From a virus: DNA of 63,367 nucleotides. Shown piece by piece: positions 10,685 to 42,033 of the stretch. The first letter of the stretch is position 1. Each line of letters starts with the position of its first letter. A program made the position numbers and the translations under genes. Where the stretch lies: positions 1-63,367 of the IMG/VR virus record IMGVR_UViG_3300013137_000021; one strand, given 5' to 3'. The notes under the pieces are model-generated. The model searched no databases and was not told the DNA's origin. It was given only the letters and a program-made list of their open reading frames with translations.

Positions 10685-10702
10685 GAGTCTTCTCCTCGCT
10701 TC

Positions 10703-10966: not shown

Positions 10967-10967
10967 T

Positions 10968-14808: not shown

Positions 14809-14817
14809 GCCGTCCCT

Positions 14818-16212
14818 CTAGGCTGTTGGTTGAAGGCTCCTGATCGCGCCCTCGTTGAAGAGCGTCGCGGTCAGCCCTGTAATCGTCTCTGAAGACCCGG
14901 CATTCCGGTGACAGTTGATGTCCATAAAATCCGGACAAGTATCATCTACGTCCAAGGCCACTCCGGTCCCCCCGTACGAACAGTTTATTCGCGTCAAGTT
15001 CCAGATCCCCCGGAAAAAAAACCCCTTGCCGAGCGTATCGCCCAATTGCACTCCACGAAATACAACATCCTGCATGGAATGGTCGATATATATAGCGAAG
15101 TGATCCGCATCGGTCCCCTGCTCGTATCGCAGATGTCCGAGGTCTATCAGGCCGCTGATACCGCTGTTGTGATCGTGATCGTCCCATATCAGGATACCGG
15201 CCCCAGTAGCGCAGGCCACATGCCCGTTCATTGTCCAGCTCGTGATATTGCAGTCGAGTCCCACAGTTACAGCCCATTGCCCCGCGCCGGGAATCAGGTA
15301 CATATTGTTCCAGTCCGAATTGTCCAGCGAAATTGCCGAATGAGGGTTGGCCTCGATATATATAGGTTTGTCCGCGAGGATGTTCACGTTGTCCAGATCG
15401 CAGAAATCTCGCCCCTGCACGTTTATTCCGATACTGGTATTCCCGGTCCAGGTGCCAATATAGATATCTCGCCCGTTGAACCGTCGAGTGTCCACGAGTT
15501 TTATAGCCGTCTTCTGGTATGTTCCAAAGCCGGTGAAACTCATAGACGAGAGCGATGCGTCTGCGATTGTGCCCGCTCCGGACGCCTGGAAAACAAAGCA
15601 GGGTTTGGCTGACGTCGGATGGAAATAGATGTTGGTGGATACCACTCCCTCTCCGTCTATGTGTGTTCCAGATGCGGCGATTGTGATAGTGTCTGTTATC
15701 TTCGGCGCTCCCTGGCCCAGCTTGATATGCTGTGACGGCGCCGCTGTGATAGCGGCCTGGATAGCTGCTGTGCAGTCTGTCACCCCATCGTTGATAGCGC
15801 CCCACCAGTGCGGTTTCACCCCGTCCATGACCGCAGTGTGAGCAATCGTGGCGTGGCCCGCGCCCGTAAATGCGAATATCTGATACTGCCCGGCATAGAG
15901 TGGGCCGTGAAAATCGACCGTGCCCTCGCCCGTGAACCTTGATCCCCGAACCACCGCGACAGCCACGTTTGCCGGAAAATTCTTGGTTACGGCCCAGTCG
16001 CCGCCACAAATCACCAAGGTTTTCTGCTCGCTGCCTATGGCTGCCAGGGCCGCGTCAAGCGCGGCCTGTCCGGGGTCACCGTAGTTTGTAGCAAGCACAT
16101 CTCCAACGAGCAATGCGTCAAAGTTGGCCTCCAGCGCCAGAATCCTGGTCCGCAACTCCGCTATTAGCGGGGACGGAGTGCCCGGCAAAAATCCCGGTGT
16201 TGGTTCAGTCAT
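14818..16212 (-). CDS. Tail spike with pectate-lyase-like right-handed beta-helix
   Basis: 464 aa. A short N-terminal helix (LIAELRTRILALEANFDALL) that may trimerise is followed by 'YGDPGQAALDAALAAIG' and then 'WWGAINDGVTDCTAAIQAAI'. The latter is the hallmark entry motif of phage beta-helix spikes of the pectate_lyase_3 type. Repeating short strands with Gly/Asn turns continue to the end. These proteins often cut or bind host surface polysaccharide. Catalytic acids cannot be assigned by eye. Gene order after the DUF4815-like protein fits a receptor-binding spike. Confidence 0.75.
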   Translation of the reverse strand: MTEPTPGFLPGTPSPLIAELRTRILALEANFDALLVGDVLATNYGDPGQAALDAALAAIGSEQKTLVICGGDWAVTKNFPANVAVAVVRGSRFTGEGTVDFHGPLYAGQYQIFAFTGAGHATIAHTAVMDGVKPHWWGAINDGVTDCTAAIQAAITAAPSQHIKLGQGAPKITDTITIAASGTHIDGEGVVSTNIYFHPTSAKPCFVFQASGAGTIADASLSSMSFTGFGTYQKTAIKLVDTRRFNGRDIYIGTWTGNTSIGINVQGRDFCDLDNVNILADKPIYIEANPHSAISLDNSDWNNMYLIPGAGQWAVTVGLDCNITSWTMNGHVACATGAGILIWDDHDHNSGISGLIDLGHLRYEQGTDADHFAIYIDHSMQDVVFRGVQLGDTLGKGFFFRGIWNLTRINCSYGGTGVALDVDDTCPDFMDINCHRNAGSSETITGLTATLFNEGAIRSLQPTA

Positions 16213-16222
16213 GATGATTCCC

Positions 16223-19200: not shown

Positions 19201-21157
19201 ACGCATAGGCGGTGTATTCGGTATTCGATTGCCCTGGCGAGTTGTTCACCCGGAGTATTTGAACCGCGTCCTTGACGTTGCCGGAGAGCCCTGTCACCGC
19301 GCTTCCGTCGAGTACCTTAGTCCACGTCCCGCCGGTCCAGACAATATCGTCCAGTCCGCCCACCGCGCCCTTTACAATCTCCGCGTCCACACACTGGACC
19401 AGGGTCCGCGCCCCCTTAATCGCATTCCGGTTGTAGGTGTACGCATAATAGACTGTAGCGCCGCTCGCAGGCTCCGCCCCGCCCACATAACTGGCGGCGC
19501 CCCCGTCCTTGACGAAATCCACACTTTCGAGGTAATTCCATTTCCCGTCGTGAGCGTCCGCGGCGGTGTCGCTCGCTCCCAGGATGGAGAGCACATTTTC
19601 ATTGGCCAACAGATCGATGTGCGTGCTGCCATTGTGGGTTCGCTGCTCAACGAGCGATGTCCGATAGTTCAGATCGCTCACATCCCGGATGAATGCATCA
19701 TTGCACTCGTAAATTCTCGTCCCCAACGGGGTATATGTTGTCGCCTCAGTCAAGCCTAATTCTGTGTAAGCGTCGTCCACCACTGCGTTGACAGTCAGGT
19801 TCTTCCCGTCAACGGCCTGTATCTCCAAATAGCCGCTCGCCGCGGTACAGATAACAAGCTCGCCGTCCGTAGGGTACGCATTCACAGACGCTTCGATAGC
19901 CGCGCCCACTTGGGCCGCTGTCATGCCGTCCGATGTGAACGCCACAACATGAGCGTTCCCGGACCCTATGGTGAGGCTCACATTCAGCCCGTCCAGATCG
20001 TATGTTTCGGGGTTGCCCGTGATAACGCTGCCGCCCGGTGTTTCAAATGCGTCGATTCCACTGTTGTTCACGAACTTGACATCGCGCGCCCTGTTGAAGG
20101 GGACCGTCTGTGTCCCTTCGGTATAGACCCGCCAGCCGTTCGGGTACGCTTTCCCTTTGTGAACCTTCAGGTTCAATTTCGTGCTATCCGTCGGGTGCGC
20201 CACGACCTCAAAGGGGAAATTTTCAACGCTGAAGTGCCCGCTCACATCGAAAATCATCTCCGCGATACGCCTGTCCAAGACCGTCCTCTCCGGCCTGAAC
20301 GTCTGGACCTTGGGCGCGTTGTCCACGAAATCCTTGATCGTAACTGCCAAGGGCTCGTCCACAACCCACGTAACCGCAAAACTGAGCTGGTCAGCGCCCG
20401 GCTGGTTATATGCCGCGGCCGCTATGCCCTCGTCCGTATTCCTGAGAACAGGATCGTCCTCATAGTCAATGATGCTCGGCGTCACCAGCACGCCCACACT
20501 CTCCGTCCCCGTCCCCGCGAGAGTGACCTCGCCCTCGGGAATCCGCAGCGGTATTCCACCCAGATACAGCGTGCCGCTGGTGAACCTCCACGTTGTCCCG
20601 CTGACAAAAACCTCGTTACAACCCTCGAAGATGTCACCATCCCTGTGGGTCACATCCCCCAGCTTCTGCAAGTGCCGATGGAAGATGCCTATCAGGTCAA
20701 TTAGCTCCATGCGTTGCGCTGTGCGCCCGGTCTTAATTAGTGGCGCATACCAATCCGGCCTGCCCGAATCGTTCACGCTGGGCGGATGTACCGCGACATT
20801 CGGCGTCTGGCCGACATCGTAGAGCGAGTGGCCCGTGGTCAGGTTCACGATCCCTAGCAAATTCCAGGCTGCGCCGACCTTTTTGTAGTATCGAACGTAC
20901 CGCGCAGCAGCGGGGATGGACGCCACAACATCCAGGAGGATCTTGTTCACAGAGTTCAGCGTGGTCGGGCCTGTGGCAATCAACACGCTGTCAGACGCGG
21001 TTGTCTGCCCGACTTTTGTGATCCACGTCGCGCAATACTCGTAGGTCGTGGCCCCTGGCGTGCCCTCCACAACCGGCGTAACCATCTGGGGAGGGTCAAC
21101 CGTGTCGAAGGCCCGTAAGTTGTACGGATGCAGCGCATCTATGACTGGATTAGGCAA
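16223..21157 (-). CDS. Giant DUF4815-like tail/baseplate protein, 1644 aa
   Basis: The N-terminus is a fibronectin-like Gly/Thr-rich module (GTPGATTYEYCATWITKVG). A DUF4815-type region follows (LIDLIGIFHRHLQKLGDVTHRDGDIFEGC...TLYLGGIPLRIPEGEV). Near residues 390-490 is one copy of the DAYxxLGL domain also found in the sheath and decoration protein. Near the C-terminus, ASNATPIVI...GNTAANGT...GAYTGGGTI matches a module in the gene at 35695. I accept the TTG start at 21157 because TAGGAGG, overlapping the upstream stop, lies just before it and no nearby ATG fits. Likely a tail-tip or baseplate-attached structural protein. Confidence 0.75.
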   Translation of the reverse strand: MPNPVIDALHPYNLRAFDTVDPPQMVTPVVEGTPGATTYEYCATWITKVGQTTASDSVLIATGPTTLNSVNKILLDVVASIPAAARYVRYYKKVGAAWNLLGIVNLTTGHSLYDVGQTPNVAVHPPSVNDSGRPDWYAPLIKTGRTAQRMELIDLIGIFHRHLQKLGDVTHRDGDIFEGCNEVFVSGTTWRFTSGTLYLGGIPLRIPEGEVTLAGTGTESVGVLVTPSIIDYEDDPVLRNTDEGIAAAAYNQPGADQLSFAVTWVVDEPLAVTIKDFVDNAPKVQTFRPERTVLDRRIAEMIFDVSGHFSVENFPFEVVAHPTDSTKLNLKVHKGKAYPNGWRVYTEGTQTVPFNRARDVKFVNNSGIDAFETPGGSVITGNPETYDLDGLNVSLTIGSGNAHVVAFTSDGMTAAQVGAAIEASVNAYPTDGELVICTAASGYLEIQAVDGKNLTVNAVVDDAYTELGLTEATTYTPLGTRIYECNDAFIRDVSDLNYRTSLVEQRTHNGSTHIDLLANENVLSILGASDTAADAHDGKWNYLESVDFVKDGGAASYVGGAEPASGATVYYAYTYNRNAIKGARTLVQCVDAEIVKGAVGGLDDIVWTGGTWTKVLDGSAVTGLSGNVKDAVQILRVNNSPGQSNTEYTAYAFLKNSDGLTHATSQVDWSSAGAPGSGAGGQPALGATYYCSFWAWRHETEGDYCSADSYDVYSEIETFATLPLRDCIDFRTLGVLPEPDESATMDYNFYLSRMDKLVLADTGDFSLIAGAPALVAPAPPDQTGVMTLAVAKIPPYTYNPTDVQVVPVAARRITQSGLNRLQERMEKMEYFAVVNGLEKEIAQQPIALDNIGIYTDALTGLGRVDTAFDKMDAHGNRVRHTAAIEPLTRTLSLPADYQAKNLSVDLVNSTHVRRNGNVLCLDYEPEVIDQQLQASIWINCAADWVYEDYVGHMQLAPFCDSFLDETQAPVINVDFDDNLTSAAADMTPEDLNSVFWGTWNSVGTATADWSTLRNDNAAGISGTISWDITQQQERQGLQITQIPGSITRDLGDRVIDMSVVPMLRTTTDTGDPFVIQVRVDGLVPNQDHAITIGGKNVDFTYDSGAEHPRGAVGTHTVQGKTTVCADNDGRLTGKFTMPAGVPNGAPLVSCFHYSLPSHSIAQATFYGKGFLTTHQGMTLGISTASIRTETVSQQQTVVVGQGQMIWGGMGDADPLAQSFVIPSEITYVSAVGLFFSAKSATMPFTVQIRSVVNGYPGPDVYATCTLEPDDIDISDDGSVETLFTFDHVLGYKAGNEFCFVTMPGTSPDYKLWAAELGAIDVISGDIIGPPMANGVLFHSPNGRTWEPWTKRDLKYKIYRSNFENDCQIVFHAISGLQAAQIATAVEEFVAPGVNVVWSYCLDGSDDWVPFHPRVNVVLEQIVEQVQLRIDVTSFGGSYQIVEQIAGVLFLLHVESADYVGRACFFNDPLALPNRIVCTVKTITDGTNGVGETSITPKYTVDDGAHWVDMQPTPGFVPVTAEQGFYVQQFETPDEATVENASNATPIVITSTSHKFQEDQLVTIVGITGNTAANGTRRIVDVSANSFSLTDPVSGADIAGNGAYTGGGTINHAEYDQVRGRVLLETDNQARAPRVRDIGFVFTRV

Positions 21158-27760: not shown

Positions 27761-28196
27761 TCTTGTATTCCGTCAGCTTCACTCGTAGCTTGCCGAATTC
27801 GGGTAGGAGTTGGTTAGGCTCGAACAGCGGCGACCATGCCGCGTCAACGTGTTCCACCACGCATTTAGCTTTGAGGGCGGAACCGAGAATCAGCGTCACA
27901 ACCGGCGGGCAATCAACGCCTGTGCCCTTGCTCGTGCATTTCGTGAGTTTCAGGAGGTCGTCAGTTCCCTTCTTGACCTGGTTGAAATCGCCATCCATAG
28001 AAAGCTGCATGTCAAGTTCATAAGCCGTTGCCTGGCCGCATCCATACTGCAATATGGGCGCTTCCCGACCCGCCGCGGAAAGGTGATTCCACTTGGCGTT
28101 CTTCACGATCTTGACCGTGTGCGGATTCCATTGAAAGCTTACCTGAGCGCCGCCCCCAACGATCATACCGCGGGTGAATTGAGCGGTTGCAGCCAT
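27753..28196 (-). CDS. CIS tube/LysM-type tail-tube initiator
   Basis: 147 aa. The pattern FQWNPHTVKIVKNAKWNHLSAAGREAPILQYGCGQATAYELDMQLSMDG matches the N-terminal domain of contractile-injection-system tube proteins (Afp7/PVC7-like), which link tube and hub. The later part ends YLRVKLTEYK-like, with 'LIL..ALKAKCVVEHVDAAWSPLFEPNQLLPEF'. It lies between tape measure and hub as expected; TAATG overlap with the tape-measure stop. Confidence 0.75.
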   Translation of the reverse strand: MAATAQFTRGMIVGGGAQVSFQWNPHTVKIVKNAKWNHLSAAGREAPILQYGCGQATAYELDMQLSMDGDFNQVKKGTDDLLKLTKCTSKGTGVDCPPVVTLILGSALKAKCVVEHVDAAWSPLFEPNQLLPEFGKLRVKLTEYKNA

Positions 28197-30610
28197 TAGT
28201 ACGGCGACCCCCAGTTGGTTCCATAGGCTCCGAAGTTCTGCGCTGCATCACGCCGATTGGTTTCACGAATAGTTGTTCGTAAGGCTTCGCCGTCAATCTC
28301 CACATGATTCTCGACATGGATATTCGCGAGGCGTTCGCCCAAATCCATGATGGTTTGCTTTAGTGAAGCCAATAAGTCGCTGGTAGCAGATTCACCCGCG
28401 GAGGGCGCAGCGAGTGTGCCCGTGGTATCGGTTGGTGTGCCGGGTGCGATTGGAGCGTATTTGGGGACATTCTCACCTACCCATCCTGCCACTACATTAA
28501 CGTTCTGTTGATATCGCCAATAACGCTCCGCGAAATTGTTCAGACCGAGCCCGCCAGCGACACCTTCTTTTGTAATGTAGTCTTGTGGCCTGTTGAACAG
28601 GTTGAGCGCCTTGTCGAGCCCCAGGTATTTCCCCCATTCCGAGGCTTTGGCGTGGTTCTCTTTGCCAACCGAGTTTTCAATGATCCCACCCCAAAAACCT
28701 TGCATACCTTGGTGCACCATTGAACGCCATTCCGCCATGAATTTCACAAACGTCTCAACCCCGCTGTAGAGAGCTTCGGCAGCCGCTGTGCCAGCTTGCA
28801 TACTGGTATTTGTTCCCCGGAAATATCCTCCCAAGGTATCAATGGCCGTGGTGATTGATGCGGCAAAACTCATCACTTGTTCAGACTTCTGCGCCATGAG
28901 ATCCCACTCGCTCATCATGTGAGCCCATGCGTTTTTGAGCCGCATATACCGAACATCTTGACCCAGGCCCTCAGCAATAATTTCCTCCAACTTCCGGGCC
29001 TTCTCTTCTTCGCTGAGGTTCTTATCTTCCTCAATACGTTTTAATTGTTGCTCCATCTTCGCGAAGTACCCAGGCGTCAACATCATCTCAAGTTGCCCGC
29101 GCCATTGTGGGTCAAAACCGATCTGTTTCAGTATGCCCGGTCCAAACTGGTCCTTGGCTTTCGCGTACCATTGAGTCATCCGCTTGAACCAGGCAACGGG
29201 ATCCTTGGCAAACGCCTGCATGAATATGGTTCCGATTTGTGCGTTGAAACTTTCTTTCGCAGGCCCTCTTAAATCCTTCAGTTGACCGAATAGTTTTGGA
29301 TCTGGACCACCAGCAGCAAAAAGCTGCATCAAAGGAACGCCGCCCTTTTCCAAGAAACTCCTCATGCCACGAGCGCCTAATTGGGGCTTCTGACCACCGG
29401 AAACGAGTGCGCCATACATAGCAAGGATGTTCTTGGTGCTCATGCCCAGTTCCAACGCGGACGGCAATGTATATGTGGCTACATTGGCAAGATCACGACC
29501 CCAAGCGTGTGTCGTGATAACCACTGAAGCCACTTCACCCATGACCTCGCCAACAAGTGAGGCATACTGCTTCTGGCCGGTCTCATATTTGAGCCGTTCC
29601 GCTTCGGGCATGAACATTAATTGGGCTTCAGCGGTCTTGGAGAGCAGGCGGGCCATGACTTCGGGCGTGGTTTTGGTCCATTTCCCCACGAGCATGGACA
29701 TTCTTGTCATGCGGTCAACTTGATCTTGCGCCCCTTTGGGGTCCAAATTTGACAACAAGTCCATCGAAAACCCTGATATCACTTCCCCAGCCGCGTCCAA
29801 ATAATCCTTAATCGAGCCCAAATGTGGATTACGTTTGACAAATTCCCACCCTCGCCGTTCCGTGGCGAGTATCTGCTCACGGGACAAATTACTACCTGCA
29901 AGGACTGATTCGGGCTCAACCAGCTTTTCCCGCGCTTTACCGAGAACAACGTTCTCCATAAGCGACTTGGCTCCGTGAATAAGCCCGCCCCACAACATCC
30001 ACCGCATCATAAAAAACGGCACAAACTTATCCATAGACATGCCGAATATGCTGTCATCCTTGGGCACGCGACCGCCCGCGCCGCCACCGGCACCCATCAC
30101 CCTTAGCGGCGTAACGCTCTTGGATGCCCTGGCTAGCGCCTCCATTTGTCTCGTAACAGTTCCTAGTTCAGTCTTGATCGTAGATAATTTGGTCGTGAGC
30201 GGCGCAAATGCGCTATTAAAAGCCGTGGCCATCTTGCCTGTGGCAGCCGTGGCGGTAGTGGCGAGCGAATTCATCAATGTCTCCATCCGTGTGATGGAAT
30301 CCATGATTGCAGCCTTGGGCACGCGACCGCCCGCGCCGCCACCGGCACCCATCACCCTTGGCGGCGTAACGCTCTTGGATGCCCTGGCTAGCGCCTCCAT
30401 TTGTCTCGTAACAGTTCCTAGTTCAGTCTTGATCGTAGATAATTTGGTCGTGAGCGGCACAAATGCGCTATTAAAAGCCGTGGCCATCTTGCCTGTGGCA
30501 GCCGTGGCGGTAGTGGCGAGCGAATTCATCAATGTCTCCATCCGTGTGATGGAATCCATGATTGCAGCCTCGCCCTTGACACCGTATGCTATGCCTATCT
30601 GCTGATCCAC
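28196..30610 (-). CDS. Tail tape-measure protein, 804 aa, with duplicated N-terminus
   Basis: A long helical protein with Ala/Met/Leu-rich coils and central hydrophobic stretches (SLVGEVMGEVASVVITTHAWG; MLWGGLIHGAKSLM). It lies directly after the frameshifted chaperone. Residues about 14-98 and 99-183 are a near-identical tandem repeat (TRMETLMNSLATTATAATGK...GAGGGAGGRVPK) from a 255-bp duplication, with only two substitutions. The GTG start at 30610 is used; GGGAAG lies 6 bases upstream. The product should set tail length; the duplication would add 85 residues if retained in the mature protein. Confidence 0.85.
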   Translation of the reverse strand: MDQQIGIAYGVKGEAAIMDSITRMETLMNSLATTATAATGKMATAFNSAFVPLTTKLSTIKTELGTVTRQMEALARASKSVTPPRVMGAGGGAGGRVPKAAIMDSITRMETLMNSLATTATAATGKMATAFNSAFAPLTTKLSTIKTELGTVTRQMEALARASKSVTPLRVMGAGGGAGGRVPKDDSIFGMSMDKFVPFFMMRWMLWGGLIHGAKSLMENVVLGKAREKLVEPESVLAGSNLSREQILATERRGWEFVKRNPHLGSIKDYLDAAGEVISGFSMDLLSNLDPKGAQDQVDRMTRMSMLVGKWTKTTPEVMARLLSKTAEAQLMFMPEAERLKYETGQKQYASLVGEVMGEVASVVITTHAWGRDLANVATYTLPSALELGMSTKNILAMYGALVSGGQKPQLGARGMRSFLEKGGVPLMQLFAAGGPDPKLFGQLKDLRGPAKESFNAQIGTIFMQAFAKDPVAWFKRMTQWYAKAKDQFGPGILKQIGFDPQWRGQLEMMLTPGYFAKMEQQLKRIEEDKNLSEEEKARKLEEIIAEGLGQDVRYMRLKNAWAHMMSEWDLMAQKSEQVMSFAASITTAIDTLGGYFRGTNTSMQAGTAAAEALYSGVETFVKFMAEWRSMVHQGMQGFWGGIIENSVGKENHAKASEWGKYLGLDKALNLFNRPQDYITKEGVAGGLGLNNFAERYWRYQQNVNVVAGWVGENVPKYAPIAPGTPTDTTGTLAAPSAGESATSDLLASLKQTIMDLGERLANIHVENHVEIDGEALRTTIRETNRRDAAQNFGAYGTNWGSPY
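30060..30569. repeat. Tandem 255-bp direct duplication
   Basis: Unit 30060-30314 is repeated at 30315-30569. By eye the units differ at two protein-changing positions (AGC/GGC context near 30105/30360, and CGC/CAC context near 30205/30460). The period is exactly 85 codons, so the reading frame is kept. The near identity points to a recent event. Confidence 0.9.
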
Positions 30611-32074: not shown

Positions 32075-34309
32075 TTACCGGCGAATCCAACCGGGCAACG
32101 TGTGCATGGACGAAAAGTTTGAATACAGTTCGCCCGTCGCGAGCACGCCAACCTCGAACTCGAAATACTCAATGTCCTGTGTAGGCTGAACCAGCACACG
32201 AGCATGGTAGATCCGCTGTTGGATCTCTTCTTCCGTGTTCAGCACTGCGCCCCGCAGTGCGCCGGTATCATCAAAAACGGCATGCCTGTCCGTTTCCAAC
32301 TCAAAAGAGTAGATGTCTCCACGAGCCTTCCATATCCTGAGTTGCGGCTCCAATATCCGATGGACCTCGCCCCAGGTATCGGGATGGTTCGGCTTGTTGA
32401 TGAACTGCCGGAGCACGGGCATGAACATCTTCTTCATTGCGAGCAGGAAGTTCATGATACCAATGCTCTGCATAGACGAATTGGCTATCAGCGTAGTGTT
32501 CTGTTGCCAGAAGACCGCGCCTTCGGTTCGAGTCAATTCAAGGAAATTGATCTGATTGTCCGCAAACTCATCCTGATAGCCGGGATAGGAAGCCAGGTTG
32601 AAATCAATGCCTTCAACCATCTGGACCGTGCCGAACTCAGGACCCGCGGGGGCACGCGAGGTATCTTGAATCTTAGCAAGGCATACCGCCCACAAGCCAA
32701 GATTTGAACACGCTTCTCTGTGGGCGTCATACTTGGCGTCATAGAGTGTCGGTCTGCCGAACTGTAGCGCAAGGTGAGCGTTGTTCCACTTCTCAAACGT
32801 CCAAGGGCTTTCTCCGTTGCGGTACTCAAGCGCATCCTCCGGGTCGCCGCCGGACGGGACCATAATGTGCGCCATGAGTCCTCTGTCCTCGCAATATGCC
32901 GTCAACGCTTGAGCCACGGCGTAACTCGTGGTCCCCGGAATGATGTAATGCAGCGCCATGTCTGTGCGGTCGGATATGATGTCCGCCGCATAAATGCCTG
33001 TATGGGCAAGTTCGTCACCAATCCAGTCGTTGTCTGCAAAGTCCGCCAAGCCGTCGTTGCCGCCGGTAAGCGCCACGCCGGTTGTTGAATACGCGGGCCT
33101 GTTGTTCGGAGCCGCGCTGACGGAAGCAAGGTCCGTCACTGTAATCAACTTGGACCGCGCGTTAATGTAGTTCACCACATACCGGTCGCTCTCCGGGTCC
33201 ATATTGACCTGCTTCCAATATTCATTAAGCCCCCCCTGCTCGGAATAGGTAACTTTCACGTCGAAACTGCCGTTAGTGTCGAGCCGGTTTTCCATAGGGT
33301 AAACTTTCAGCCCGTCACCCCAGACGCCAGGGTTTTTCGCTGCAAACGTGAGGGTGTCCTGAACCGTGCCCACGCTGCCGGAATGCACATCGTTGTCCAC
33401 GCCAAGAGCGGTCGTGCATGTGCTGGTGTTCTTGACCTGCAATGTTGCGCTTGCGCCGGTCTCGGTGGTCCGTATAGTTAGCACACCGCCAGATACGGAC
33501 AGTGAGGCCCCGAGCACGTCAGCAAGGTCAGCCTGAATCTGCGCGGCGCTTCGTATCCCGGCAGTGAGAGTGAAGGTCTGATCCGACTGCCCGTGAATCG
33601 CCAGTACAAGGCTGTCCGTGCCCGCCGTAGCGTCATAAACCGCGACGGTTAATCCCAAGTGAGTGTACGCATCATTGGTGACAGCTTGAATCTCCAAATC
33701 GTCGGTTACAACGTTCGCTGTAACCTTGATGCGTCCGTTGGCTACCGTAGCGGTAAGGTAATCCGTTCCGGCGTTTATCTGTCCGGCCACGGTCTCTGCC
33801 GTGATGCCAGCGCCCACCAGTGTGACGGTCTGCGCGTCATGTGTCCCTACCTTGACCTTGAACGCATCTGAGGCCCCCACGCCAAACGTAAACGGCCCGA
33901 CTTCCGTCCCTGTCACCGTTCCCGCTGCCGGGGCAGTAATAGTGAACGGGTCTGGGTCCGTCGCTATAGATGCGGGCAGTTGCGCCGCCCCCTGATCCTC
34001 CAGCGTCACAGACGAGGCCACGGCGGTCATCGTGCTGGGATCTGACGCATCCGTGCAATGCACGACACGCATAATGATGAATTTGGCCCCCTGCATGAGA
34101 CCTATTTTGATAACCAATGGGTCAACGCTGCCGGTGAATGTGCGGCCAAACCAGCGTTCGTACTCATCGACGCTTGTAACCGGCACAGGGGTCCAGAGGG
34201 GACCACGTTCCGCCTGTATCAGCGCAAACACGTAGCCGGCCATAAGCTGCTTGACATAGAGCGAGAGGTCGTTAAACGACCAGATTACTCGTGCGGCTCC
34301 CATTCCCAT
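32075..34309 (-). CDS. Tail sheath protein with two inserted repeat domains
   Basis: 744 aa, larger than most sheaths. The N-terminus (SFNDLSLYVKQLMAGYVFALIQAERGPLWTPVPVTSVDEYERWFG) and the late part (GVALTGGNDGLAD; 'FVEFEVGVL'-like YFEFEVGVLATGELYS end) match phage tail sheath proteins. Residues about 147-225 and 232-310 are two copies of the domain 'FKVKVG..DAQTVTL.. GITAETVAGQINAG...DLEIQAVTNDAYTHLGL', shared with the capsid decoration protein. Insertion in the outer sheath domain would place it on the outside of the tail. AGGAGG precedes ATG 34309. Confidence 0.85.
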   Translation of the reverse strand: MGMGAARVIWSFNDLSLYVKQLMAGYVFALIQAERGPLWTPVPVTSVDEYERWFGRTFTGSVDPLVIKIGLMQGAKFIIMRVVHCTDASDPSTMTAVASSVTLEDQGAAQLPASIATDPDPFTITAPAAGTVTGTEVGPFTFGVGASDAFKVKVGTHDAQTVTLVGAGITAETVAGQINAGTDYLTATVANGRIKVTANVVTDDLEIQAVTNDAYTHLGLTVAVYDATAGTDSLVLAIHGQSDQTFTLTAGIRSAAQIQADLADVLGASLSVSGGVLTIRTTETGASATLQVKNTSTCTTALGVDNDVHSGSVGTVQDTLTFAAKNPGVWGDGLKVYPMENRLDTNGSFDVKVTYSEQGGLNEYWKQVNMDPESDRYVVNYINARSKLITVTDLASVSAAPNNRPAYSTTGVALTGGNDGLADFADNDWIGDELAHTGIYAADIISDRTDMALHYIIPGTTSYAVAQALTAYCEDRGLMAHIMVPSGGDPEDALEYRNGESPWTFEKWNNAHLALQFGRPTLYDAKYDAHREACSNLGLWAVCLAKIQDTSRAPAGPEFGTVQMVEGIDFNLASYPGYQDEFADNQINFLELTRTEGAVFWQQNTTLIANSSMQSIGIMNFLLAMKKMFMPVLRQFINKPNHPDTWGEVHRILEPQLRIWKARGDIYSFELETDRHAVFDDTGALRGAVLNTEEEIQQRIYHARVLVQPTQDIEYFEFEVGVLATGELYSNFSSMHTLPGWIRR

Positions 34310-34310
34310 G

Positions 34311-34601
34311 TTATTGCACCTCCTCTATGTCGATTTCCCCGCGCTTTTTCATTTTTGTGATGATGCCGTCCTTGCCGTCCGGTTTGACCAGGAGCAGCTT
34401 CTCGGCTGGGATCGGCGCGGAAATGTGATCCGTTTTCTGAGGATGCCACGCGCCCAATCGTATGGTCGTGCCGTCAATAAGCGGGATTTCCTGCGGTTGA
34501 CGCCTCTTGTTCGTCACCCGGAACATGACAGGAGCGGGCTTCGAGATTGGCGCCACGCCCGGAGCTTCCGGCGAATCATTGGATTTCTTCTTCAGGGCCA
34601 T
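34311..34601 (-). CDS. Hypothetical tail-region protein, 96 aa
   Basis: The N-terminus is Lys/Pro-rich (MALKKKSNDSPEAPGVAPIS). It is followed by a compact beta-rich region (VMFRVTNKRRQPQEIPLIDGTTIRLGAWHPQ). This region resembles small phage proteins found before sheath genes, though no family name is certain. It ends one base before the sheath start. Function unknown. Confidence 0.6.
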   Translation of the reverse strand: MALKKKSNDSPEAPGVAPISKPAPVMFRVTNKRRQPQEIPLIDGTTIRLGAWHPQKTDHISAPIPAEKLLLVKPDGKDGIITKMKKRGEIDIEEVQ

Positions 34602-34613
34602 GATCGGGCCTCC

Positions 34614-35195
34614 TTATGATGCAGAGATAGTCAGGTCGATGGTTGTTATTGAGGCATTCGGCCACGATGTCAGGCGGTCTATCCATACCGGCCGTACGTC
34701 GTAGACGAACGATGTCCTGAACTCAGGAATGCTTAGATCGTCCAGGTTAATCGGTTTGTCATGAACGAACATGGGTGATTGTCCATCCAACAGAGGCGAA
34801 TAATCGGGAGGAATGACCGAATACATGGCCTGCAACAGAAAGTCAGAATGAGTCCGGTTCGTCGCCATGACGTGAAACTCATAGGGAATCGACAACGGGG
34901 TAGGGTAGGGCTTACGGGTGTAAGACGCTGGCCCTGTGACTTCTCCACCGCCCATGCTTCGGGGCAACTCGGTCGTTATCTCCTCTTCCGAAGGGACGAA
35001 GAGCCATTCCGATGCCCTACGGTCTTCCTTGATCTCGTGATGCCCGAGCCTCTGCCAACCAATGCAAGGCGGCTCTACTTCACCCTTTTCGCGACCAGGA
35101 ATATACGGATAGACTTTGACCGCGACGCCTGCCAGCTTGATTAACGCAAGCCGTTCGGTAATCTTATTTTCGAGCAACGTGATAATGTTACTCAT
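34614..35195 (-). CDS. Putative tail completion/terminator protein, 193 aa
   Basis: 193 aa. The C-terminal part (YEFHVMATNRTHSDFLLQAMYSVIPPDYSPLL...FVYDVRPVWIDR) has the layout of proteins that close the tail tube or join it to the head, and gene order between connector and sheath agrees. It starts MSNIITLLENKITERLALI. Overlap of 4 bases with the upstream gene. Assignment is by position and general look. Confidence 0.6.
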   Translation of the reverse strand: MSNIITLLENKITERLALIKLAGVAVKVYPYIPGREKGEVEPPCIGWQRLGHHEIKEDRRASEWLFVPSEEEITTELPRSMGGGEVTGPASYTRKPYPTPLSIPYEFHVMATNRTHSDFLLQAMYSVIPPDYSPLLDGQSPMFVHDKPINLDDLSIPEFRTSFVYDVRPVWIDRLTSWPNASITTIDLTISAS

Positions 35196-35698
35196 GCTGC
35201 AAGAGCCTTCTGCAAAGCTTCTTCGTAGATGCTTCGCACTCGTACCTGAATGTTGAGTGCCGCGGGTTGAAACAGCGGTCGCGGCGGGCCGTGCATTTCG
35301 CCTCGCTCGTGACCCGCAATTGTTGCTGCAACAAAGGACGGAATCCTATGCGGAGTTGTGTGATGTCTGACCATTTTTTCCAGAGCTTCCGGCCATGCTA
35401 AGCCGCCCGGTAGTCCTACCCAACCGCCGAATCCTTGTCTCACGGTCTTCACTTTCCGCGTGGCATAATCTGATCGTATCAATGGCCGCGTGCTAAATCC
35501 CTTGTCAGCCTTCTGTTTTCTCCACTTAGCTTCGTTTTCCCGCCAACCATAAGCGTTGCTGTTCCAGCTAGTCACGATCTCTTTCAGAATCACATCGCCC
35601 GCCTTCATCGCGGCCGCGGCGAGTTGGGCCTGAAACCTCTGGGCAAATCCATTGGTGATCTTGCGAAACGCTTTTATGTCGATGTTGATCCGAATCAT
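35192..35698 (-). CDS. Head-tail joining/HK97 gp10-like morphogenesis protein
   Basis: 168 aa, basic. A central AAMKAGDVILKEIVTSWNSNAYGWRENEAKWRKQKADKGFSTRPLIRSDYATRKV is like phage virion morphogenesis (gpS/gp10) proteins that help join head and tail. The stop and start overlap both neighbours by 4 bases. Family naming is tentative, but the head-tail joining position is solid. Confidence 0.6.
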   Translation of the reverse strand: MIRINIDIKAFRKITNGFAQRFQAQLAAAAMKAGDVILKEIVTSWNSNAYGWRENEAKWRKQKADKGFSTRPLIRSDYATRKVKTVRQGFGGWVGLPGGLAWPEALEKMVRHHTTPHRIPSFVAATIAGHERGEMHGPPRPLFQPAALNIQVRVRSIYEEALQKALAA

Positions 35699-36345
35699 CC
35701 GAAACTCATCACTCCAGGCTTGGAAGCGTTCAGTTCAACCGCCTTTCGCACCGTGATCCTCACCATGCCCTGCACCGCGCCAATCGGGCCGTAAGCGTCA
35801 ATGACCTGCTCGTCAGTGGCAAAATCCCATCGTTCACCCGAAATAAGCAGATGCCCGCCTATTTCCAGCACGGGTACGCCCCGGCTGGTATTGAAGCCTT
35901 TGTGAAAACACAGGATCTTTTCGGCGCGGTTCCACATGCCTAACTCGTCTATCTTCAGCCCTTCGCTCGATTCCTTGTCCCTGTTCCAGCGGCATGTCAG
36001 CAGTCCGGTAGAGGCGTGAACGACCGTCCCGCCTTCGGTATATTCACCAGTGCCCGCTATGGGGTCGCCGGTATCCGCATTGAATAGTTCAAATGTGCTG
36101 CCGGTTATGTTTCTCGCCTTGTATGTGCCGTTTGCCGCTTCGTTGCCTTCCACATCAGCAACCGTCACCAGGGCATACTCGGGAAAGGGCGCATCATCTA
36201 CCGTAACCACAATGGGCGTGGCATTGCTGGCGTCCATAACGGTCAATGTCCGCTCGGGCGGCACATAAGTCACATATTCGCTAGCCTTCCACATGAAGCC
36301 TTGTTCCTCTCGACGTTGTATGCTAGCGAGAATTGAAGCCCTCAC
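35695..36345 (-). CDS. Head-tail region protein containing an FCCH-like module
   Basis: The GTG at 36345 overlaps the previous stop (GTGA) and is preferred over an ATG 30 bases upstream inside the preceding gene; product 216 aa. Residues about 37-115 read DASNATPIVVTVDD...VADVEGNEAANGTYKARNITGSTFEL...GTGEYTEGGTV. This module also occurs in the DUF4815-like tail protein and resembles phage domains annotated as ubiquitin-activating E1 FCCH-like. Remaining parts have no recognised motif. Likely virion structural. Confidence 0.6.
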   Translation of the reverse strand: MRASILASIQRREEQGFMWKASEYVTYVPPERTLTVMDASNATPIVVTVDDAPFPEYALVTVADVEGNEAANGTYKARNITGSTFELFNADTGDPIAGTGEYTEGGTVVHASTGLLTCRWNRDKESSEGLKIDELGMWNRAEKILCFHKGFNTSRGVPVLEIGGHLLISGERWDFATDEQVIDAYGPIGAVQGMVRITVRKAVELNASKPGVMSFG

Positions 36346-36752
36346 GTCCTGTCTCCCCACGCAACAAGTCCACAACCGGGCCAGGAATTTGGATTCTTGG
36401 CCGACTCGTCATCCAATAGACCCGCACCCCTAGCTGCGCCCGCCTTCAGGTCCTTAATGACCTGCCGGAGCGTCTTAAAAAACTCTGACCTGCTGGGCAA
36501 CCTCACACGTTCCGGACCCTCACCCAACTCCTGAACGTCATCCATGTAGACCTGAGAAAAGCGGAACATCAGGGCTTCGAGCACCAACGCCGCGACGTAA
36601 TTGCTCTGAGCGTCAGTGAGCGTGACATCACTCCAACCCTGCTCGGCCTTCTTGGAAACGATATAGATCGAGAGGTCATCCTCAATAGTGTTGTCCAATG
36701 CCAGCGCAGGTCGGATATGGACTTTCACAAGTTCTGTGATATCAATCGCCAT
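36342..36752 (-). CDS. Head-tail connector/completion protein, 136 aa
   Basis: 136 aa, helical, starting MAIDITELVKVHIRPALALDNTIEDDLSIYIVSKKAEQGWSDVTLTDAQSNYVAALVLEALMFRF. This is the pattern of gp6/gp4-like adaptor proteins under the portal, but I cannot be more exact. It is the first gene after the structured gap at 36769-36827. Confidence 0.6.
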   Translation of the reverse strand: MAIDITELVKVHIRPALALDNTIEDDLSIYIVSKKAEQGWSDVTLTDAQSNYVAALVLEALMFRFSQVYMDDVQELGEGPERVRLPSRSEFFKTLRQVIKDLKAGAARGAGLLDDESAKNPNSWPGCGLVAWGDRT

Positions 36753-36768
36753 TCTCTAAACTCTCAAA

Positions 36769-36827
36769 GGGGCCTGGGATGCTGGGAAAGGAGGATATAT
36801 AGCCAGCATCCCTAATTGATTGGCCCC
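36769..36827 (-). terminator. Nested perfect hairpins downstream of the capsid genes
   Basis: Outer GGGGCC (36769-36774) pairs with GGCCCC (36822-36827); inner GGGATGCTGG (36776-36785) pairs perfectly with CCAGCATCCC (36803-36812). On the transcribed minus strand the stem is followed by CCCCTTTGAG, not a real T-run. It lies between capsid-proximal and connector genes and may be a partial terminator or processing site that raises capsid over connector expression. Confidence 0.5.
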
Positions 36828-36914
36828 AATGCGGCGAGGCTTTAGGCCCCTCGTTCTTGGGTCTCACGTCGATGGGCCGGAAGTCTCTTCGACCTCTTCC
36901 CTCGCCACACCAAT

Positions 36915-37223
36915 TTATCGTTTAACCTTCACCGGTTTGCGTTTCGGCTTAACTGCCGGTCGCGACACTTTCCGGGGAAGGGGCTTAGGTTCCTCAACAG
37001 CGGGTGGCGGCGGGGCTGCTTCCTTTGCCACCCCCTGAGCCGGAGAAGGCGGCGCAAAAGCCACCTTTTCCTTCACGAACTTCAAACCGCCCTCGTTGAG
37101 CCATTCCCGAGTTTTTTTTCCGATTGGCTCGGACAGCGGTTTGATTTCATTAAGCTTGATCCGAAATCCCGTCTCCGGGTCAGTGAACTGAGTGCCCGGA
37201 TTGCTCAGACATACTTTTTCCAT
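36915..37223 (-). CDS. Hypothetical basic Pro/Lys-rich protein, 102 aa
   Basis: 102 aa. The N-terminal half is folded-looking with short strands (MEKVCLSNPGTQFTDPETGFRIKLNEIKPL). The C-terminal half is Pro/Ala then Lys/Arg-rich (PPPPAVEEPKPLPRKVSRPAVKPKRKPVKVKR is the character) and likely disordered. It lies just after the major capsid gene. A capsid accessory role is inferred. Confidence 0.6.
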   Translation of the reverse strand: MEKVCLSNPGTQFTDPETGFRIKLNEIKPLSEPIGKKTREWLNEGGLKFVKEKVAFAPPSPAQGVAKEAAPPPPAVEEPKPLPRKVSRPAVKPKRKPVKVKR

Positions 37224-37232
37224 GTCCTGCCC

Positions 37233-38357
37233 CTATGCGTCCTCACGTGGGCTCATGTAAACGGGGAAGCCGTTCTCCGAGAAGGCCAGCGAACGGTCCA
37301 CGATGATCCGGCGGATTCTCTTTAACGTTGTGAATCCAGAGATGACCGAGGCATAGGTCCCTTGAATCTGGCGCTGTATAATCCGGTCGTTCTCGACCAG
37401 GAGGCCACGGAACGTCAGATAGTCCATCGCGCGACGGTCGAAGAAAAGAGTCTGATCGTCGGAAAGCTGATCCGTGATGCGGTGCAGCAGGTTTGCTGGG
37501 ATGATGCGGTTTGTATCGACCGATACGACCTGCCCGCCGACGCCCTTCTGAAGCTTGAACTCATCCATGTCGAGGATTTCATTCGCCAGGGGCTCACTCG
37601 TCAGCATATTTACCCAACGGACGCCCACGCGAGAACCACGTACCCAGGGCCGCACGTAGTCAGGGAAATCCAGCGTATCCGCTACGCTCACGCCGATAAT
37701 CGAAGTGGCGTCAGAGCCCCCCGCCTGATCGCCGTTAATCAAGCAGTTCACACCGGCGCGGAACAGCTTCATGCCCAACTCTGTCCCGACTTCCGTCAGG
37801 TACTCACCAAGCAGATTCAGCGGACAGGAAAGGATGACTTCATCGGTGTACTCGATACCTATGGCGGATTTCTTCAGGCGAATCGTCTTCTCACCCCAAG
37901 AAATCTTGGACACCGGGATGGTTTCGGCCTCTCCGATATCCTGCGGCCTGGTGTCTTCGTACTTGATCCAAGGGCTCGTGACCGTGAGTTGCCCCACATT
38001 TTGCGAACTACTTATCAAGTCGGTGTGCGTAGCCGTGGATTCGAGGCCATCTACAACGAACTGGCGCACGATTTCAGGCGCGAGGCGACTGATATCGCCA
38101 CTGAGGGAAATCAGGTTACCAAGGGTCAACTCTGCCGGATTTTCCGCCAAGTCCTGCCATAGGTCCTCCAGTGTGATCGGATTGCCCGCCATGTTTGTCA
38201 GACCGCAAGGCCGCCCCTGTCCGTTGATAGCCCTGGTCTGCATGAATTTCTCAAGCGAAATTTCGCTGCCGGGCTGTCCATCGTTGCCTCTATAGGCTTG
38301 AAGCGGCTCATAGACACGCTCCCGAAAACTGTTGAGAAGACCAAGTTCTCCTGCCAT
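37233..38357 (-). CDS. Major capsid protein (HK97 fold)
   Basis: 374 aa. It has an E-loop-like start and an N-arm typical of gp5-type shells. Long beta stretches follow (LTVTSPWIKYEDTRPQDIGEAETIPVSKISWGEKTIRLKKSAIGIEYTDEVI), then 'GMKLFRAGVNCLINGDQAGG' and a late 'DYLTFRGLLVENDRIIQRQIQGTYASVI'. These features fit known HK97-fold MCPs of contractile phages. It follows the decoration proteins and protease in the usual order. ATG 38357. Confidence 0.8.
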   Translation of the reverse strand: MAGELGLLNSFRERVYEPLQAYRGNDGQPGSEISLEKFMQTRAINGQGRPCGLTNMAGNPITLEDLWQDLAENPAELTLGNLISLSGDISRLAPEIVRQFVVDGLESTATHTDLISSSQNVGQLTVTSPWIKYEDTRPQDIGEAETIPVSKISWGEKTIRLKKSAIGIEYTDEVILSCPLNLLGEYLTEVGTELGMKLFRAGVNCLINGDQAGGSDATSIIGVSVADTLDFPDYVRPWVRGSRVGVRWVNMLTSEPLANEILDMDEFKLQKGVGGQVVSVDTNRIIPANLLHRITDQLSDDQTLFFDRRAMDYLTFRGLLVENDRIIQRQIQGTYASVISGFTTLKRIRRIIVDRSLAFSENGFPVYMSPREDA

Positions 38358-38369
38358 GTCCGTTACTCC

Positions 38370-40280
38370 TTATTTCTCCAGGGTTTCGATAGCGGTAGAA
38401 GCCGCGTAATTTCCGGCTGCAAGGCCGAGGGTTGAATATGCGTCGTGTGCTATTTCATCCAGCGTTATGTCCGTGAATCGGTCATCAGCAGTGATGCGAA
38501 TCTTTGCCGCGACCACGGATGCCATGAAATCCGTCGCGGTAGCATTGATGTCGTCACAGACCTCTGAGGCGGTTCGCGCCGCCCCCGCGGTCAGGTCGAA
38601 CACCTGCGCCTCCCCGTCTCCGATGGTGATAGAAAGGGCGTCATTGCTACCATTGGTAATGGCATAGGGGCCGCGTCTGCCGCCTGAAACGCTTCGCGCA
38701 GAGGGAAGGCCGATTATGAGACCGGCGATAGCGGCCGGGTTGTGTGAACGAACTTCATCATAGGTGTCAGCGGTGAAGCCAAGCGCCGTGTAACAATCGC
38801 CCGATACCTCCATGATGATGAGAGAATCGGCAAGGTCTTCCGTAGCCAACCGGAGATGACCGGACGATGCGGAAGCGACGAATCCGACAGCAGCGGCAAA
38901 GTCCGCTATGACCTGCGTAATATTCCTGGACCCACTCGTCAGCGTGAAGGTTTGCTCATCACCATCGGAATTGATTTTGACCTTGAACTGATTGGCCTGT
39001 ACGGTATGCTCGTACTGGTCAACCACGAGCCCTAGCACTGCATATGCGTCATCAGCGACATCCTCGACCCACAGGTCTCCGTCAGTCTCATCCGCGGTGA
39101 GTGTCAGAAATCCGCCGCCATTTACTGCCGCGGTTAGCCCCGTTGTGCCGCTATTGATCTCGCCCGCTATCTGGGTGATGGTCCGCGCAGCGCCAACGGT
39201 CAGAGTGACCGTTTCGGATTCTCCGCCTGTAACCTTAAGCTTGACCTTGGTGTTCACAGCGTCCGCAATGAACTGAGCGCCGGTAGCTGTTCCGGTCGTG
39301 GTCCCCGCAAGGGCCGAAGTCGCCTCGTAAACATCCACTGTGAGGCCCAACAGGGTGTAGGCGTCATTTGCGACCGCCTCAATTTCGAGGTCGTCGTATG
39401 TGGCGTATGCCTGAAGCTTCAAATAGCCGCCCGCGACCGACGCCACGATATTGTCGGTCTGGGTGTTGATTTCATCCCTAATCGTGGTGAGAGCCACATC
39501 TACGCCCGCTGTCAGCGTCACCGTCTGCGATGCGCCCGCTCCGACCTTCAACTTGAGCTTATCGTTGGTGTTCAACACGACCGTTACGACGGTGTTCACC
39601 GTCCCGGTATGCGTTCCACCCGCGGCGGGCACTGCTGAATAGACTGCGGCAGTCAGACCCAACGCCGTGTAGCAATCGCCCGTGACCTCCACGACCTCTA
39701 AGTCATCCGCGGTATCGTCCGCTGTGAGCACGAGATGTCCGCCGCCATCGACACCCGCTGTAAATCCAACTGCCGTGGCATTGATGTCATTCTGGATCTC
39801 AACCATTTCCAAAGCAGGGCCAGTCGCCAGCGCAATGGTCTGCGGGTCGCCGGTCCCCACCGTGACCTTCAACTGGTTGTTGATCGCGTCCGCTATGCTG
39901 ACAGGGCCATCGTCAGTGCCGATTGTTGCGCCCGCGGCCGCTGCGGTGACAAGGAACGGTCCCGTCCCCGTGCCAACAACGCCGACGAACTCATCTCTGG
40001 TGTAGTTGACTGCATTGCCGTCAGCATCGTGAACGTAAGGCCCCACGGTTACAGCTTCGCCCGCCTCGCGGTCGTCCCTTCGCTCGCGGAATCGTGTATT
40101 CAGCGTGCAGGTTGTGGCGTCTGCCAGATGGACGGCCACTGTCCCGAGGACATTCACGCTGCCGTCAATGCTGAGCGCCGCGGCCGTAAGGTGGTCCGAG
40201 ATGTCGAGCACTTGACCAACAACCACGTCTGAAGGACAGGCGACGGAAGTGGCAAGGCATCTAGTTCGTGCTTGTTTCAT
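38370..40280 (-). CDS. Capsid decoration protein expanded by five repeat domains
   Basis: 636 aa. Ends resemble the 123-aa protein encoded next to it: TRFRERRDDREAGEAVTVGPYVHDADGNAVNY near residues 62-93, then HNPAAIAGLI near 513-522. Between and after these are five copies of an about 80-residue domain at roughly 135-215, 240-318, 344-423, 430-507 and 545-624. Each has a 'VG...QT.TLTAG...I...IN...' start and a 'DAY..LGL...Y' end. It lies directly upstream of the capsid gene. Likely a surface-exposed head fibre or decoration protein; the repeat is also in the sheath. Confidence 0.7.
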   Translation of the reverse strand: MKQARTRCLATSVACPSDVVVGQVLDISDHLTAAALSIDGSVNVLGTVAVHLADATTCTLNTRFRERRDDREAGEAVTVGPYVHDADGNAVNYTRDEFVGVVGTGTGPFLVTAAAAGATIGTDDGPVSIADAINNQLKVTVGTGDPQTIALATGPALEMVEIQNDINATAVGFTAGVDGGGHLVLTADDTADDLEVVEVTGDCYTALGLTAAVYSAVPAAGGTHTGTVNTVVTVVLNTNDKLKLKVGAGASQTVTLTAGVDVALTTIRDEINTQTDNIVASVAGGYLKLQAYATYDDLEIEAVANDAYTLLGLTVDVYEATSALAGTTTGTATGAQFIADAVNTKVKLKVTGGESETVTLTVGAARTITQIAGEINSGTTGLTAAVNGGGFLTLTADETDGDLWVEDVADDAYAVLGLVVDQYEHTVQANQFKVKINSDGDEQTFTLTSGSRNITQVIADFAAAVGFVASASSGHLRLATEDLADSLIIMEVSGDCYTALGFTADTYDEVRSHNPAAIAGLIIGLPSARSVSGGRRGPYAITNGSNDALSITIGDGEAQVFDLTAGAARTASEVCDDINATATDFMASVVAAKIRITADDRFTDITLDEIAHDAYSTLGLAAGNYAASTAIETLEK

Positions 40281-40663: not shown

Positions 40664-42033
40664 CTACTTGCCCTCCCTATTCGTCGAAACATGCTGCCCA
40701 CGCCATCGGCTATGTCTGCGTCCCTGGCGATGCGCTGATTCGTTGTCTGAGCGTTCCCCGTCCCTGGCAGCACGGGCGGCGCGGTGGACCGATTCAGACT
40801 GAATTTTGCCGCGGCCAATTCCTCGAAATGGGTCTTGTGAACCTTCAGCATTTCAGGATCTCCACAAGCCTCAATCATTGCTCGGAGTTTCTTGTCCCCC
40901 TCAGACATTTCGGGCTTTTCGGGATTCGCCTTGGCTGCGTCAAATTTACACAAGGTCTGTTGGCGAAGATCCTCAATGTAGGCGTCCCCCAGGGCTGCGT
41001 GTTCCAGCCGTTTGGGTAGGCGCTCAAGGATCTCTTCGGTGGTCAGCCCCGTCTCACCTTCGTTGAGAAGATGTTTGGCCGCGACAAACTGAAGTTTTTC
41101 CTGTTGACCGGTCAGGACTTCACTCGCCTGGTTCAAGGCAGCGGTTCGCTCCCTGATTTTTTCCGCGAGTCCTTCCGGCACTTGGGTGTTGTCGATAATT
41201 GGGTCTAACTTCAGGAGGCCGAGCGCCTCATTCAGCAGATCCAGAATTTCCTTTTCCATTCCTCGTCCTCCCGGTATTATGGAATGTTCGAGATTGGGAA
41301 TCTCACGGGCACCGGCGTTTTTGTCCGCACCGGAACCCGATGGGATCATTGCCATGTGCCGCACTGCGGTTATCTTTTTGGGAAGCCAGCGGACCACCTC
41401 CCCTTTGACCTTCTTGCCCTGCTTGATCATGAAGCCGTAATCATCCATATCGGGATGACTCTTCACGAAATCGCCGGTAATCCCCACGGAGCCCGACCGG
41501 ATTAGGCCGCTATCCAGGCCCAAGGCCGCTTTCGCATCAAAGGCGGGATCAACCACGATCTCTGCGTTCACTCCCGGCGGGATGTCCTTGGAATCTTCCC
41601 AAGCAGCGTGTTCAACGAATCCGGCCAGATACTTGACCTCCCATGAATGATCCCATGTCAGATCCGGTCGATTGCTGTTGATGAGCCCGACAATGCCGCG
41701 AATGGCCTTTCCATTTTCGTGGCCGTAGTCCACAAGTTGCGGATACCAACCGCCCGAAGGCCACGCCTGCACACATGAAAGAATGCGCCAGAGTTGCCTC
41801 AACTGGCCGTTAGCGTCAGAAGCGGCATTACTGCTCTTATCGTCAGCGGCGCCCTTGCCTGCTTCGGCATGTTCGAGTGAAGCTTCCTCTTCGGATTCGC
41901 TTTCAGTCTCGGGTGTCGTCGCTGCCGGCGGCTCGCGATGCGCCGACGCCGCCGGGGAGTGATCGAAGGTGAACACCTTCTCGTTGCCCTCCATCCGGCT
42001 GTTCGGAATTGTCAGTTTCTTGGTCTGATCCAT
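40660..42033 (-). CDS. Putative prohead protease/scaffold protein, 457 aa
   Basis: The N-terminal 80 residues are acidic and disordered (ESESEEEASLEHAEAGKG). The middle (SLGITGDF-like GSVGITGDFVKSHPDMDDYG...KKITAVRHMAMIPSG) resembles capsid maturation protease domains. The C-terminal 200 residues are helical (ILDLLNEALGLLKLDP... AALNQASEVLTGQQEKLQFVAAKHLLNEG), like a scaffold. It lies between portal and decoration/capsid genes, the classical place. GGGAGG precedes ATG 42033. It overlaps the portal gene by 131 bases. Catalytic residues cannot be named. Confidence 0.6.
   Translation of the reverse strand: MDQTKKLTIPNSRMEGNEKVFTFDHSPAASAHREPPAATTPETESESEEEASLEHAEAGKGAADDKSSNAASDANGQLRQLWRILSCVQAWPSGGWYPQLVDYGHENGKAIRGIVGLINSNRPDLTWDHSWEVKYLAGFVEHAAWEDSKDIPPGVNAEIVVDPAFDAKAALGLDSGLIRSGSVGITGDFVKSHPDMDDYGFMIKQGKKVKGEVVRWLPKKITAVRHMAMIPSGSGADKNAGAREIPNLEHSIIPGGRGMEKEILDLLNEALGLLKLDPIIDNTQVPEGLAEKIRERTAALNQASEVLTGQQEKLQFVAAKHLLNEGETGLTTEEILERLPKRLEHAALGDAYIEDLRQQTLCKFDAAKANPEKPEMSEGDKKLRAMIEACGDPEMLKVHKTHFEELAAAKFSLNRSTAPPVLPGTGNAQTTNQRIARDADIADGVGSMFRRIGRASR

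Follow-up and report, generated by a model that had tools for sequence, protein, structure and literature searches.

We analysed a 63,367-base stretch of DNA (hereafter, the window), comprising positions 1 to 63,367 of the IMG/VR virus record IMGVR_UViG_3300013137_000021. Its structural genes, which include those for the terminase, portal, protease, capsid, sheath, tube, tape measure, and baseplate, all run in one direction; the phage is contractile-tailed. Three of the virion proteins carry a common module of approximately 82 amino acids (aa): the decoration protein of the head contains five copies (D1–D5), the tail sheath protein contains two (S1 and S2), and a large tail protein with a DUF4815 domain contains one (T1). 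All eight copies had been described at these places in an initial annotation of the DNA, and all were recovered here (Table 1), whereas a ninth copy was looked for within the window and not found.

Table 1. Module copies, carrier proteins, and neighbouring head genes in the window
Feature	Position	Strand	Evidence or remark
Naked cement-type protein, 123 aa	40292-40663	−	Uninterrupted paralogue of the decoration core
Decoration protein, 636 aa, cement core with five inserted modules	38370-40280	−	Between cement paralogue and major capsid gene
Decoration cement core, N-terminal part, residues 1-93	40002-40280	−	Alignment to naked paralogue
N-terminal extension of D1	39882-39992	−	Score 64, 0/2000 shuffles as high
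Module D1	39633-39881	−	Pairwise scores, leave-out profile
Module D2	39321-39566	−	Pairwise scores, leave-out profile; modelled, pLDDT 88.9
Module D3	39006-39254	−	Above Pfam Flagellin_IN cut-off
Module D4	38754-38996	−	Directly after D3; leave-out profile
Core segment SHNPAAIAGLII, separating the two insertion sites	38712-38747	−	Matches SHDPAAIAGLVI of naked paralogue
Module D5	38400-38645	−	Second insertion site; leave-out profile
Core C-terminus AIETLEK	38373-38393	−	By eye matches VVETLEY of paralogue
Major capsid protein	37233-38357	−	phrog_3922 major head protein, 3.3e-25
Tail sheath protein, 744 aa, with two modules	32075-34309	−	phrog_23 tail sheath, 2.4e-17
N-terminal extension of S1	33872-33979	−	Similarity to stretch before D1
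Module S1	33629-33871	−	Pairwise scores, leave-out profile, module tree
Module S2, most divergent	33377-33619	−	Profile E 3.6e-5; S2 clade 100/99
DUF4815 protein, 1644 aa, probably baseplate	16223-21157	−	PF16075, 1.2e-61
Module T1	19724-19990	−	Insertion after DUF4815 N-terminal region

Because any profile containing a copy always recovers that copy, the homology of the modules was assessed with leave-out profiles, which were searched against the 876 open reading frames (ORFs) of the window. A profile constructed from D1–D5 only recovered S1 (E-value 1.7e-21), S2 (4.2e-6), and T1 (5.1e-8), with the next ORF at 2.5. A profile constructed from the decoration modules of other phages recovered all eight copies at E-values of 2e-28 to 4e-5 (S1, 7.8e-24; T1, 2.1e-7; S2, 3.6e-5), with the next ORF at 2.2. 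Nothing but the eight copies fell below an E-value of 2, and the search thus bore out the common module. When pairwise alignment scores were compared with those of shuffled sequences, most module pairs had z-scores of 5 to 28; S2 matched D4 well (z 12.9) and had no direct match to S1 or T1. The similarity also did not vanish in profile–profile comparisons (41 D, 18 S1, 17 S2, and 2 T modules), because the D modules matched each of the other groups with high probability (S1, 99.9%; S2, 98.9%; T, 98.4%), although the comparison of S2 with T alone was weak (10%). The scant direct similarity of S2 to T1 and the richness of the modules in Ala, Thr, Val, and Gly might suggest that the resemblance is due to chance or to the convergence of Thr/Ala/Gly-rich β repeats. 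However, this explanation is refuted by the exclusive recovery of all eight copies with profiles from other phages, and the same sites and order are kept across relatives; its probability is practically negligible.

The arrangement of the copies was largely as annotated. The linkers preceding the first copy in the decoration protein and in the sheath, which had been described as similar, gave an alignment score that was not reached by any of 2,000 shuffles (64 versus 27 ± 5.6). In its sequence, this linker looks like an N-terminal extension of the module itself; similar stretches also precede D2, D3, D5, and T1, whereas D4 and S2 directly abut the preceding module with no extension between them. 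The description of five tandem copies in the decoration protein was correct in number, but only D1–D4 are in tandem; D5 comes after a further 36 aa, some of which belong to the carrier.

The nature of the carrier was suggested by the naked, cement-type protein encoded beside it. This protein and the N-terminus of the decoration protein share 46% identity over 93 aa, after which the naked protein continues with SHDPAAIAGLVI and a C-terminal ETLEY. An ETLE-type ending is retained in both naked and modular relatives. The D1–D4 array is inserted between residue 93 of the decoration protein and SHNPAAIAGLII, and D5 is inserted between SHNPAAIAGLII and AIETLEK. As judged from these alignments, the decoration protein is a paralogue of this probable cement protein, with modules in two of its loops. 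Of 15 naked-core orthologues, 9 matched the Pfam family Phage_cement_2 (PF09956; best E-value, 2.5e-5), with no match for the window copy at an E-value of 0.1. In a low-confidence model of the core (predicted local distance difference test [pLDDT] score, 59), both insertion sites fell between strands, and the 13 best structural matches were all head structures of phages or archaeal viruses, including Sf11, TW1, and the base of phi29 gp8.5. In the cement-core tree, the naked and modular proteins did not form two clean clades (7 changes), and a single old duplication is therefore not supported.

In the tail, the tblastn alignment to annotated sheath proteins covers residues 324–730 of the window sheath, and the S1–S2 pair separates the N-terminal part of the protein from its conserved C-terminal part. 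The DUF4815 protein, which aligns with PDB entry 9euf ("DUF4815 domain-containing protein"; 1.9e-53), is probably a baseplate protein, judging from these family matches. T1 can be regarded as an insertion because relatives of this protein lack the module: it is missing from the Herelleviridae homologue, in Bacillus phage Bp8p-C, the alignment with which skips from window residue 363 to 583, and from the homologue in Vibrio phage VPALA. The module keeps a fixed site in at least four phages, occupying approximately residues 390–480 in the window protein and in those of three related records (G006, G008, and G010). It is found at the same place in G022, where the frame ends before DUF4815 could be confirmed, and a weak copy is located elsewhere in the G021 protein. 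The DUF4815 protein also shares a second, different module with a 226-aa protein encoded in the head–tail region (35695-36375, minus strand). Residues 1543–1612 of the former and approximately 46–121 of the latter are 44% identical, are of the E1_FCCH / phrog_584 type, and have the pattern SNATPIV...GNTAANGT...GAYTGGGT.

The structure of D2 was predicted with AlphaFold2 at a pLDDT of 88.9, with 14 natural copies in the alignment. The predicted order of the elements is strand–strand–helix–strand–strand–strand–helix–strand (E-E-H-E-E-E-H-E), in which strands 2–8 and 14–18, helix 26–36, and strands 40–45 and 48–53 constitute a hairpin–helix–hairpin core. A conserved IN is present in D1, D2, D3, D5, and S1 and has been lost in D4, S2, and T1. 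The top PDB matches of the model in Foldseek were V. cholerae FlaD/FlaB, E. coli FliD D2-D3, the FliD cap, and the XM1 sheath (probability 0.98–0.63, query TM-score [TMq] up to 0.62), and further matches included phage sheaths and "Baseplate J-like" proteins (TMq 0.70–0.76). This ranking was consistent despite E-values that were non-significant for so small a domain. When a profile of 25 modules was compared with the PDB, it matched residues 124–182 of the XM1 sheath gp6 (1.9e-5) and, over the first ~60 residues only, flagellins (1.6e-4 to 9e-4), with nothing else below 0.3. The Flagellin_IN family (PF07196) was not detected in a whole-protein Pfam scan but was detected with single modules, matching 8 of the 25 (best 5.3e-7); D3 scored 27.4 bits against the curated cut-off of 22.7, and the other window copies scored below it. 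The XM1 sheath insertion domain itself resembles FliD D3 according to Dali (PMC10457771). Because the ranking of the model's matches, the PDB profile matches, Flagellin_IN, and this likeness between XM1 and FliD point the same way, we assign the module most probably to the FliD/flagellin-type outer domains (Pfam "Flagellin hook IN motif"), even though its carriers are phage cement, sheath, and DUF4815 proteins and not flagellar proteins.

Some observations weigh against this assignment: the Foldseek E-values of D2 are individually non-significant (0.17 at best), the majority of modules score below the Pfam cut-off, and the copy that was modelled is D2, with other copies in its alignment, so that S2 and T1 are assigned by their sequences. 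As a β-rich, repeated element inserted in decoration and tail proteins, the module could also be taken for an immunoglobulin (Ig)-like domain of the kind shared among phage virion proteins. However, it showed neither a 7–9-stranded β sandwich nor an Ig family match, other than one match to Big_6 (E-value 0.17) among 25 modules, and its predicted topology, with two helices, matches FliD, flagellin, and the XM1 sheath instead of Ig folds. We consider an Ig-like domain very improbable.

Relatives of the window were recruited by a short codon pattern and then by alignments of the module or the cement core; in the counts, near-identical records are counted once and the window is included. The sheath was visible in 18 records, and the S1–S2 pair was present in all 18, including L006, in which the frame breaks inside S2. 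The pair was accompanied by a modular cement protein in 14 of these records, whereas the remaining four (L025, L026, L037, and L039) had only a naked cement gene, located directly before the capsid gene. The number of module copies in the cement gene ranged from none to six, with one complete module in L007, L015, L030, L034, and L038, five in the window and L022, and six in L035. In L022, the closest relative, D1–D5 occur in the same order, and the module tree pairs D1–D4 one-to-one with those of the window. Thus, the initial suggestion that one phage carries a common module on both its head and its tail not only is supported but holds across a lineage of about twenty relatives. The sheath of L004 is encoded in two frames (9241-10197 and 10194-11351) split inside S2, which may represent a frameshift, a sequencing error, or a real break. 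Modules of the same family also occur in two distant cases: a 1216-aa sheath-like protein in the 257-kb record L017 (7940-11587) and, as a single copy, a protein of about 434 aa in the 55.8-kb record L014 (9770-11071), with none of the cement, capsid, or sheath genes that mark the window lineage around it.

Outside these records, whole window proteins used as queries had no matches among viral and genome contigs, and tblastn detected no annotated isolate phage with a recognisable module copy. A weak match in Pseudomonas phage Stamos (E-value 0.05) was rejected; it is a 62-aa protein with a module profile score of 9.9 bits and the look of a Big-type Ig domain. A scan of genome contigs with the module alignment found no copy and therefore no evidence for a host-borne donor.

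In the module tree, the S2 modules formed one clade (support, 100/99) and the T modules another (99/97), indicating that S2 of the sheath and the baseplate insertion are old and inherited. The head modules, on the other hand, were duplicated within lineages. In the L034 sheath (14718-17285), S1 is interrupted by a complete module that brings its own N-terminal extension, and this inserted module groups among the head modules with moderate support. Furthermore, three cement proteins (L006, 7368-8975; L027, 4535-6124; L029, 1523-3097) have three N-terminal hairpins in a row and, after these, three C-terminal halves, a sequence pattern that reads as a module nested within a module. Such patterns suggest that modules have been copied from one gene to another. 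D1–D3 are placed beside the S1 group with only 80% support in the Shimodaira–Hasegawa-like approximate likelihood ratio test, which does not decide between head-from-sheath transfer and the reverse.

Elsewhere among the structural genes, a 255-nucleotide tandem duplication (30048-30557, 98% identical) lies at the beginning of the 804-aa ORF (28196-30610, minus strand) that probably encodes the tape measure protein. It is recent and could represent either a change in tail length or an assembly artefact. The portal and protease ORFs overlap by ~130 bases (41903-42033).

With regard to function, we favour as probable the explanation that the modules are exterior accessory projections, such that a flagellin-type domain would be displayed along most of the particle, on the head, sheath, and baseplate. 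The modules would point outward, would be dispensable for particle assembly, and would owe their distribution to duplication and to copying among the head and tail genes of one lineage. The head, sheath, and baseplate would thereby gain a similar outer layer. This layer would most likely serve either to make weak contacts, many at once, with cells or surfaces or, on the head, to form a strongly acidic spacer and protective coat. An accessory role is suggested by the four records that have only the naked cement gene and still keep the sheath pair. The more specific proposal of a virion-wide coat, in which the flagellin-type domain is copied among the head, sheath, and baseplate genes, with partial co-evolution and with tuning by the head copy number, is tentative and falls somewhat short of even odds.

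Several points count against projection as an accessory feature. The XM1 and Milano sheaths, together with cement homology, are the basis for placing the modules on the outside, and the support of the forks in the module trees is modest. The head modules have a net charge of −10.9 per 100 residues and the remainder of the decoration protein one of −2.7, but the sheath modules (−5.5) barely exceed the remainder of the sheath (−5.0) in acidity, and an acidic coat therefore cannot explain all the copies. Moreover, the FliD-like domain of crAss001 gp36 packs on the capsid protein, contacting its A-domain (PMC10172136), which makes a stabilising role a real alternative. In this main rival explanation, the modules would pack on neighbouring subunits and reinforce the capsid and the extended sheath, a role similar to that proposed for Domain II of the phage 812 sheath in stabilising the disk (PMC9230969), and the presence of the S1–S2 pair in every sheath (with a nested extra module in L034) suggests constraint. 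Nevertheless, the capsid copies vary from none to six, four records lack a modular cement gene, and nested modules and arrays of five or six are more readily reconciled with projection than with a fixed contact in the lattice. Reinforcement is therefore the less likely explanation, although it deserves serious consideration.

Specific glycan binding by the modules is possible by analogy. The initial annotation had suggested glycan or mucus binding, and the modules would then be comparable to the Ig domains of Hoc, whose arrangement a many-copy display on the head would resemble. The only link to mucins is indirect: in some strains of P. aeruginosa, mucins are bound by FliD and FliC, whose outer domains are of related fold (PMC8306008). 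In contrast, the modules include almost no Trp (0.1%) and little Tyr (2%) over 79 copies, leaving no obvious aromatic platform; they are strongly negatively charged; and none of the 25 single modules examined matched a carbohydrate-binding family. We therefore consider dedicated glycan- or mucus-binding domains improbable.

The initial annotation had called the spread of one surface module over head and tail an unusual virion design. This is upheld for the sharing within one phage but not for the presence of such domains on virion proteins, because Ig-like and FliD-like domains were already known there. Fraser's survey, as cited in PMC7602432, reported Ig-like domains in structural phage proteins of five classes. 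FliD/flagellin-like domains had been reported on the XM1 sheath, called "unique" (PMC10457771), and on a crassvirus capsid protein, called unprecedented (PMC10172136). These known FliD-like domains, however, are in different phages and have so far been reported structure by structure, whereas here the same module extends across the head, sheath, and baseplate of single phages. What is new is one sequence-level module common to all three within one lineage. In the open-access literature, we found no report of a sequence-recognisable module common to the cement, sheath, and baseplate of the same phage, which is not proof of absence. The question of its role parallels the long-standing question about phage Ig-like domains, and the natural variants with zero to six head copies offer a ready comparison for the role of surface domains.

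Among the known systems, the insertion domain (InD) of the XM1 sheath gp6 (PDB 7kh1; PMC10457771) is the closest, being the best PDB profile match of the module and inserted in the sheath N-terminal domain. However, it is a single domain reported on the sheath only, with no reported sharing with the head, whereas the window sheath has a tandem pair. The extension domain of the Milano sheath (residues 91–203) is described as external and matched the module only weakly (E-value 0.65), but in both the XM1 and Milano sheaths, as in the window sheath, the insertion follows the N-terminal part and precedes the conserved C-terminal part. In the capsid auxiliary protein gp36 of crAss001 (PMC10172136), a FliD/FliC-like FD domain is likewise inserted in a capsid surface protein, a comparison made at the level of the fold as described; its carrier is PH-like and not a cement protein, and the FD domain is single, ~160 aa in length, and in contact with the capsid. 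Flagellin_IN (PF07196) recognises D3 and other modules, and flagellins and FliD rank high among the fold matches, as noted above, but the flagellar context is absent here and most copies lie below the cut-off. The Ig-like domains of T4 Hoc and T5 pb10 (PMC7602432) are similarly accessory exterior modules found in several kinds of virion protein, yet they have another fold, and the present modules differ in their variable tandem number and their module-in-module nesting. Finally, the fold of the lateral domain of the Vandenendeviridae sheath (phage Adele; PMC12846349) has been listed by its authors in sheaths, nozzle proteins, auxiliary capsid proteins, FliD, and flagellin. That list is a fold-level one across different phages, whereas the module described here is recognisable in sequence within one phage.

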